Shown here piece after piece: positions 27,558 to 33,746 of a DNA stretch of 54,159 nucleotides (position 1 is the stretch's first letter; each line of letters opens with the position of its first letter). The position numbers were made by a program, and so were the translations under genes. The stretch comes from a virus. Location: IMG/VR virus record IMGVR_UViG_3300037541_000705, positions 1-54,159 of that record, one strand, 5' to 3'. The notes beneath the pieces are model-generated. The model was not told the origin of the DNA and made no database searches. It saw only the letters and a list, made by a program, of their open reading frames with translations.

Positions 27558-27655
27558 TCGAGAGTAGCGAAGTGGTATCGCAGCCGTACTGTAGGGTAAA
27601 ACCGACCAGTGTACATATTAGGCGGATGACGTAGGTTCGATTCCTACCTCTTGAA
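27558..27655 (+). tRNA. tRNA-like gene with replaced anticodon domain, 98 nt
   Basis: Acceptor TCGAGAG/CTCTTGA (one G-T pair), D arm GCG-AAGTGGTAT-CGC and T arm GTAGG-TTCGATT-CCTAC are all canonical, so this is clearly tRNA-derived. Between D and T arms are 49 bases (27582-27630) that do not form a normal 17-base anticodon arm; an ACTGTAG stretch resembles a Tyr anticodon loop but lacks its stem. Options are an intron-like insertion, a long variable arm with a damaged anticodon stem, or a tRNA-like RNA. The gene at 27656 begins directly at its end. Confidence 0.5.
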
Positions 27656-32552: not shown

Positions 32553-32578
32553 GTAAACCTTATTTGACGGTAATAAAT

Positions 32579-32851
32579 ATGAGTAATCAAACTACGGTAA
32601 AAATGTCTGATGAAATTGACTTTTATTTTAGAGAAGAATTAGAACGGATTGGATTTACTGTAGATGGCAATGATGAAAATCTGTTTTTTGCTTTGTGCCT
32701 AAATTATTGCATTTATGCCCAAATTAAAGATGATCACGTTTCTTTATCTTTAAAGTACAAACAGCCGTTAGCTTGGTTTCGATTAACTAAATGGGAGCAA
32801 CTCACGCCTGCGGTTAAGTCCATGTTAGAAATGGTGATAAATAGTATTTAA
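32579..32851 (+). CDS. Hypothetical protein, 90 aa
   Basis: Acidic soluble protein (MSNQTTVKMSDEIDFYFREEL ... LSLKYKQPLAWFRLTKWEQL). ATG 32579 is preferred over TTG 32564. It lies directly before the long non-coding region and could share its promoter. No family recognised. Confidence 0.55.
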   Translation: MSNQTTVKMSDEIDFYFREELERIGFTVDGNDENLFFALCLNYCIYAQIKDDHVSLSLKYKQPLAWFRLTKWEQLTPAVKSMLEMVINSI

Positions 32852-32939
32852 ACCATGTTTGTTTAGGTGAGCTAAAACGGTTAGAAGTTGCAAGCTTTTA
32901 ATCGTTTCTTTTTTTTTGCATTTAATCTTCAATTCAAAC

Positions 32940-33478
32940 AATGCTCTAGATTTGAGCATGATGAGTCCTTAGCTGAGTGTTTATATACTCAACGCTTTTT
33001 AAGCCTTTCACTTAATCGCCTAAGTCAATATTTCAACCCGTTTTAATTTGCCGTTCTGACATCACAGGTAACGCTTTATCTGACAGATGGCTAGCTGACG
33101 AGGGTACGCTGCTATATTTAAGCCCTAACTCATTTGGGGACTAAACCAAAAGGAAAGCACCATCGATCTATTGCCTCCGTGTTCTACGTTATTGCCCTTG
33201 TTTAGAGGGACAGACACGGGATAAAGCTTAAAACAAAGCTATGCACTGAGTCATCGCAAGTTTCGCCTTATGGGAATACAGTCAGCCACTATCCCACGCT
33301 GACCACTCAACCTTAAAATCTTTATATCAACCTATTGCAAAACTATTACTCTAGCTGCTAAGATTGTTTACATAGAAAAAGGGCGCTGATTTTTTCGAGT
33401 GGTATCCAAATTTTAGCTCCTCAAGATTAAAAAGTAAAGCCCCCTCTACCGAAATCAGTAGAGGGGGCTTTACTTTTA
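32940..33478 (+). ncRNA. Candidate large structured RNA, about 540 nt, ending in a terminator
   Basis: No coding frame of note exists here on either strand. Visible pairings on the plus strand are ATGCTC/GAGCAT (32941-32959), a nested CCGTGT...CCCT/AGGG...ACACGG near 33176-33219, and GTCAGC/GCTGAC near 33281-33303. The loop of the last hairpin contains TATCCC, complementary to GGGATA near 33218-33223, a possible pseudoknot. A perfect terminator closes the region. I do not recognise a known family (it is not RNase P, tmRNA, or a group I/II intron core). A relation to large phage RNAs such as GOLLD is possible but untested. Confidence 0.45.
33430..33477. terminator. Bidirectional terminator, perfect 20-bp stem
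   Basis: AAAAGTAAAGCCCCCTCTAC (33430-33449) pairs with 33458-33477 around an 8-base loop. It is the 3' end of the candidate structured RNA on the plus strand. The stretch 33479-33630 after it holds no gene; TATACT near 33588 may be a -10 box for the micropeptide. Confidence 0.9.
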
Positions 33479-33631
33479 TGCTTTATTTCATTAATCCGTA
33501 AGTACAGATATCCTTTCGAGATAGCCTCTCACAGGACAGTAGCGAACTGTCAAAGCTTGATTTATTTTATCATCAATCTATTTTGCATATACTGCAATAA
33601 TAAAAGTGCAAAACCACACAGAACCACTGCC

Positions 33632-33688
33632 ATGAAGATGAAACCGCCCAAGCCAAAAGGTAAGCCTAAGCCTAAGCCTTATAAGTAA
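33632..33688 (+). CDS. Lys/Pro micropeptide, 18 aa
   Basis: An 18-codon frame encodes MKMKPPKPKGKPKPKPYK, an extremely regular Lys-Pro peptide. It lies between a TATACT box and a strong terminator at 33691, so a dedicated short transcript is plausible. There is no clear Shine-Dalgarno. It could be a real basic peptide or a chance repeat. Confidence 0.35.
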   Translation: MKMKPPKPKGKPKPKPYK

Positions 33689-33690
33689 GC

Positions 33691-33727
33691 AAAAGAGAGA
33701 GCGATCAATGCGATCGCTCTCTCTTTT
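33691..33727. terminator. Bidirectional terminator with HIP1 core
   Basis: AAAAGAGAGAGCGATC (33691-33706) pairs with GATCGCTCTCTCTTTT (33712-33727) around a 5-base loop. Ends the minus-strand operon (34346-33747) and any transcript from the left. Confidence 0.9.
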
Positions 33728-33746
33728 TTGTTTGTTGGATGTTTAC

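Follow-up and report, generated by a model that had tools for sequence, protein, structure and literature searches.

A long noncoding stretch in the window

The 54,159-nt stretch of viral DNA analysed here (the window; IMG/VR record IMGVR_UViG_3300037541_000705, positions 1 to 54,159) contains a region from 32852 onwards in which no gene is apparent, and the question that it raises is whether this region encodes a structured RNA and, if so, on which strand and of which kind. The region from 32852 to 33746 (895 nt) is the longest stretch of the window without an ORF of at least 60 aa, the runner-up measuring 342 nt, in agreement with a first-pass annotation that had singled out the locus as the longest gene-free stretch. 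The hairpins and the CCGTGT/ACACGG domain listed in that annotation are present in the sequence, as is a 23-nt inverted repeat at 33430–33477. Its description of the region as strongly structured needs correction: the MFE of 32852–33478 corresponded to z-scores of -5.0 (plus strand) and -4.5 (minus strand), but these values were due to the terminator alone, and without the terminator hairpin they were only -1.6 and -0.4, respectively. Because the z-score collapses once the terminator is omitted, single-sequence folding provides no evidence here, and the evidence comes from the comparison with relatives. The single sequence by itself would have left the claim of a noncoding RNA weak.

Homologs of the element in freshwater phages

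About a dozen phage contigs contain homologs, which fall into five sequence types, 56–85% identical between types; these are the only independent types and all come from related freshwater phages. The first type is that of the window, the second that of L035 and L046, the third that of L069 and L070, the fourth that of L020, L027, L028, L029, L031, L032, L034 and L036, and the fifth that of PA-SR01, an isolated Pseudanabaena phage. BLAST of phages and plasmids with the window sequence itself returned nothing, and the L020 variant alone reached PA-SR01, in which it occupies an intergenic stretch without annotation. PA-SR01 is a lytic phage isolate carrying a homolog; the paper describing it reports tRNAs and terminators and no noncoding RNA gene. 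The host Pseudanabaena is known for PA-SR01 only, and for the other carriers we infer it. Additional copies were retrieved with patterns taken from conserved blocks, and a search of the relatives' whole records gave an element 71% identical in an 80-kb phage, where it occupies a different locus. Pattern matches without homology (L030, L037, L040–L049 except L046, L051–L066 and L071–L073) were discarded, as were L038, L039 and L006, whose model matches were partial or weak, and a Saprospiraceae genome match (L067) that proved to be a chance match within an ATPase-like gene; a second match of this kind (L068) was taken as the same case.

An ORF comparison among the relatives revealed no ORF shared by the types, and of the 19 indels that separate the window from L020, 15 have lengths not divisible by 3. 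The region is therefore not protein-coding.

A covarying secondary structure

The model derived from domain alignments and consensus folds comprises 13 helices or segments of helices, and every arm of it was checked in five representative types. The RNA and its domains in the window are as follows.

32934–33403, minus strand: conserved structured noncoding RNA of ~470 nt, 5' end at ~33403 (homologs, covariation, z-scores)
33302–33403, minus strand: 5' domain, P11 (33397–33403 with 33302–33308) enclosing P12, P13 and P14; double changes in P11 and P13
33177–33296, minus strand: central domain, P10 (33292–33296 with 33271–33275), P9 (33266–33270 with 33222–33226), P8a (33214–33219 with 33177–33182) and P8b (33205–33209 with 33195–33199)
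33082–33168, minus strand: long-range P6/P6x (33160–33164 and 33167–33168 with 33086–33090 and 33082–33083), closing a variable multiloop
32942–33024, minus strand: 3' domain, P4 (33011–33015 with 32999–33003), P3 (32987–32991 with 32974–32978) and P1 (32954–32958 with 32942–32946)

In the five types 290 of the 297 paired cells can pair (276 Watson–Crick and 14 G–U), the rest being 2 A–C and 5 other combinations. When the 3' arms were dealt among the types, 253.6 ± 6.1 cells paired and the real number was reached in 0 of 20 000 shuffles, a control that ignores the relatedness of the five independent types. The comparison of relatives that the first-pass annotation had proposed as a check revealed compensatory double changes keeping the pair at 24 base pairs. 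By the tool's counts, 95–96% of the cells of P11–P14 and P8a/P10 were paired, versus 27–53% with partners slid by a few columns. Covariation was clearest in P10 (UGGGA/UCCCA, CAGGA/UCCUG and CAGAG/CUCUG), P8b (CCCUC/AAGGG with one mismatch, CCUUU/AAAGG, CCUCU/AGAGG and AGAGC/GCUCU), P8a, P6 and P11 (ACCACUC/GAGUGGU, ACCACUA/UAGUGGU, ACCACAA/UUGUGGU and AUCGCA/UGCGGU). P6/P6x changes from GAUGG/CCAUC to GGUGG/CCACC and also between GA/UC, UG/CA and GG/CC. The four helices of the central domain together include 12 pairs with double changes, and the covariance model of this domain (R1) matched full-length homologs at E values of 1e-39 to 1e-46. Double changes were observed in P3 as well as in P4, whose hairpin loop contains an invariant GAAAG, while P1 (32942–32958), the last conserved helix of the RNA, is conserved in sequence, with one G–U on the minus strand in PA-SR01.

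The homologs in five types and the covariation support the earlier proposal of a large, possibly new phage noncoding RNA. The proposed kissing interaction between GGGATA (33218–33223) and a TATCCC loop did not hold up: it is not conserved, 33292–33296 forms an arm of the covarying hairpin P10, and 33218–33223 overlaps P8a/P9.

The RNA is assigned to the minus strand

Folding of the alignment gave a z-score of -8.46 for the minus strand versus -5.18 for the plus strand (-7.74 versus -6.28 with an earlier alignment). Wobble pairs in P9, P12 and P13, and in P1 and P11 of PA-SR01, become A–C mismatches on the plus strand. Since the helix list was made by hand, the 14:2 ratio of G–U to A–C leans to the strand already chosen, and the z-scores are the fairer test of strand. 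The elements flanking the RNA are given below.

33410–33438, minus strand: predicted promoter, -35 TTTACT (33438–33433), 17-nt spacer, -10 TAAAAT (33415–33410), followed by a 6-nt discriminator and a start at 33403
33430–33477, both directions: bidirectional intrinsic terminator, a 23-nt inverted repeat upstream of the RNA, whose left arm includes the -35
32564–32851, convergent to the RNA: left-hand gene
32875–32917, plus strand: hairpin and T9 tract, the terminator of the left-hand gene (terminator scan)

In all five types -35 and -10 elements with the same spacing precede P11, with exactly 6 nt between the -10 and the start of this helix; four types have the form seen in the window, with TTTACT as the -35 and with the -10 occurring in relatives as TAGAAT or TAGTAT. 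PA-SR01, which is otherwise different there, reads GTTACA-17-TATAAT-6-AUCGCA, with a perfect TATAAT and with AUCGCA starting P11; its predicted 5' end is MT234670.1:88652, the counterpart of 33403 in the window. Independent consensus scans of the window, L046 and PA-SR01 each listed the promoter, and its consensus form was found at the RNA locus only in the records searched.

The reverse orientation has to be weighed against this, namely a structured RNA on the plus strand that would begin at the T9 tract and end in the terminator at 33430–33477. In its favour are a strong plus-strand terminator beyond the element (window, L020, L035, L046 and L070), a weak TTTAAT box after the T9 tract and the folding of the alignment, which is significant on the plus strand too (z = -5.2). 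However, the minus strand scores better (-8.5), the wobbles of P9, P12, P13 and of P11 in PA-SR01 are A–C mismatches on the plus strand, PA-SR01 is without such a terminator, and neither it nor L070 has the T9 tract, whereas the minus-strand promoter occurs in all types. The plus-strand model was rejected on the promoter, wobble and z-score evidence, and we consider it unlikely. One plus-strand helix, formerly P8, was dropped, since it requires A–C mismatches on the minus strand.

The promoter spacing, the z-scores, the wobbles and the distribution of the T9 tract therefore place the RNA on the minus strand, from ~33403 to ~32934, and that the region is a structured RNA gene on this strand is in our judgement highly probable. 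A noncoding structured RNA does lie where the first-pass annotation had put one, but its conserved part covers ~32934–33403 on the minus strand and not 32852–33478 on the plus strand, and the perfect terminator in which it was thought to end sits 5' of the RNA and holds its -35.

In relatives the inner stem of this terminator is replaced by other paired sequences (GGGTTGAAC/GTTCAACCC in L070), with the outer AAAGTAAAG/CTTTACTTT retained. The left arm is invariant while the inner stem varies freely, which fits an arm that carries a promoter element. No strong intrinsic terminator was found at the 3' end of the RNA, so that its length of ~470 nt is approximate. In a separate observation, the terminator loop is inverted between the near-identical phages of the window (33447–33460, CCGAAATCAG) and L004 (4698–4711, CTGATTTCGG), as if the palindrome had been flipped.

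Gene context and exchange of the locus

The gene downstream of the RNA differs in each type; it is convergent in the window and L020 and on the same strand as the RNA in L046, L070 and PA-SR01, at distances varying from ~45 to 360 nt. The same-strand genes would suit a role of the RNA in cis, as the leader or 3' UTR of a neighbour, of the riboswitch or attenuator type. Yet the RNA holds no fixed position upstream of one gene family, and the differing and partly convergent downstream genes at variable distances make a leader or UTR role improbable, with a chance that we regard as small. Nor does the RNA have the features of a self-splicing intron, being intergenic in all contexts and without an Rfam intron match.

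In the closest relatives of the window phage, which are 96% identical on both sides of the locus, a 2.3-kb gene block takes the place of 32857–33410, and the RNA is missing from the whole of their records. Since near-identical relatives are without it, the RNA is dispensable. One record, IMGVR_UViG_3300042312_000581 (G015), has a copy of each of two types, at 6.6 kb and 38.4 kb and ~66% identical, which suggests that the two diverged copies are non-redundant subtypes. Homologous noncoding elements in unrelated gene contexts were found in G007, L035/L046, L069/L070 and PA-SR01.

In L050 the body of the RNA is replaced by a DUF559 (PD-(D/E)XK-type) gene with both ends of the locus kept, and L004 has the same gene and the same right junction. 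This Vsr/PD-(D/E)XK-like endonuclease gene (188–190 aa; L050:3848-4663 and L004:4006-4730) reads in the minus-strand direction, and what is left of the RNA promoter precedes it. Intronless homing is a known system of phage endonucleases. The position of the DUF559 gene in the place of the RNA, between retained locus ends, looks like a possible case of intronless homing into a noncoding RNA locus; this likeness concerns the replacing gene, not the RNA.

The exchange of the locus between phages and the endonuclease gene in place of the RNA in L004 and L050 could also point to an element acting as DNA, a replication origin or recombination target whose hairpins form in DNA. Against this, conservation is strand-asymmetric in wobbles and z-scores, the promoter is fixed to the 5' helix, and neither the range of insertion contexts nor the presence of two copies in a single genome suits an origin; we regard such an element as very improbable. 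That the region is ordinary intergenic DNA with decayed genes or with structure arising by chance, as the unremarkable single-sequence folding without the terminator might suggest, is refuted by the covariation and by the 56–85% identity across phages, and merits practically no credence.

The preferred reading thus remains a minus-strand gene for a structured RNA. Missing in near-identical relatives, present as two subtypes in one phage and giving its place to a DUF559 gene in two lineages, the RNA is an accessory cassette.

Relation to known RNA families

A search with all 4227 Rfam families, the second check that had been proposed, gave no credible match for this region of the window on either strand, and at permissive E-values there was no match in the RNA region of the window, L020, L028, L046, L070 and L074. 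The GOLLD model (RF02032) had no match at E ≤ 10 in the window (G000), G015 and G016. No description of the window RNA was found among the open-access papers searched. The RNA is a new cyanophage family, matching none in Rfam, and with its noncoding nature, covarying structure and phage homologs it belongs to the broad kind of large structured phage RNAs.

GOLLD and ROOL, phage-encoded large RNAs of unknown function, form RNA-only cages (PMC12286853). The window RNA shares with GOLLD its general kind, a large, elaborately folded phage or prophage RNA with its own gene, and the division into a conserved region and a less conserved one (PMC12286853). It differs in its length (~470 nt, whereas many GOLLD RNAs exceed 800 nt), in having its own promoter and helices, and in its surroundings: GOLLD is often near tRNA genes, and an adjoining tRNA is absent from most loci of the window RNA, the nearest lying ~2.2 kb away in L035. 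The suggestion that the RNA is GOLLD-like thus fails as a statement of membership, there being no match to GOLLD or any other Rfam family. ROOL is likewise a large phage-encoded RNA, non-essential in one strain tested and with no known partner (PMC12286853). The window RNA is similarly large, phage-encoded and non-essential (for ROOL, in that one tested strain), with no known partner, but it is shorter (ROOL env-120 has 659 nt), has no match to the Rfam model of ROOL and is not near tRNA islands.

Possible role of the RNA

Conservation, secondary structure, noncoding nature, strand preference and varied contexts are observed, and transcription is what we infer. Very probably a folded RNA of ~470 nt is made from the noncoding stretch and shared with several distantly related freshwater cyanophages. 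It would be transcribed independently from its own predicted promoter, starting at ~33403 on the minus strand, and be insulated by terminators on both sides. Its predicted fold has three parts: a 5' domain that the 5' end itself closes through P11, a central domain of several helices (P6, P8–P10) and a 3' domain of hairpins (P1, P3 and P4). As accessory cargo, exchangeable like other phage cargo, it may bind a protein or complex of host or phage origin, or its own copies, during infection, and would act in trans and not by controlling a neighbouring gene. Such a trans-acting accessory role has in our estimate about an even chance of being correct. By analogy, the best reading is a trans-acting phage RNA that would be comparable to GOLLD and ROOL in kind, not in family. 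More speculatively, and with rather low probability, it might be a third example of the large ornate RNAs that phages carry, with no kinship to GOLLD or ROOL; it would self-assemble or capture a host complex in infected cyanobacteria and compete with a homing endonuclease for its locus.

Large structured RNAs of unknown role are rare, and GOLLD and ROOL proved to be RNA-only cages. The predicted promoter, the covariation-backed fold and the homolog in the isolated lytic phage PA-SR01 make the present RNA a directly testable cyanophage RNA, and its displacement by an endonuclease gene suggests that RNAs of this kind may be exchangeable cargo.

Other elements of the window

Two further elements were observed in the window. 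A tRNA-like gene at 27558–27655 on the plus strand (Rfam, 46.6 bits; no call by ARAGORN) has 36 nt in the anticodon arm where the model has 9, and may be an insert-bearing, degenerate or unusual phage tRNA. At 33592–33736 a proline/lysine-rich mini-ORF (MKMKPPKPKGKPKPKPYK) is accompanied by a HIP1-containing terminator; this block is 81–87% conserved in most relatives of the phage group and is spread more widely than the RNA.
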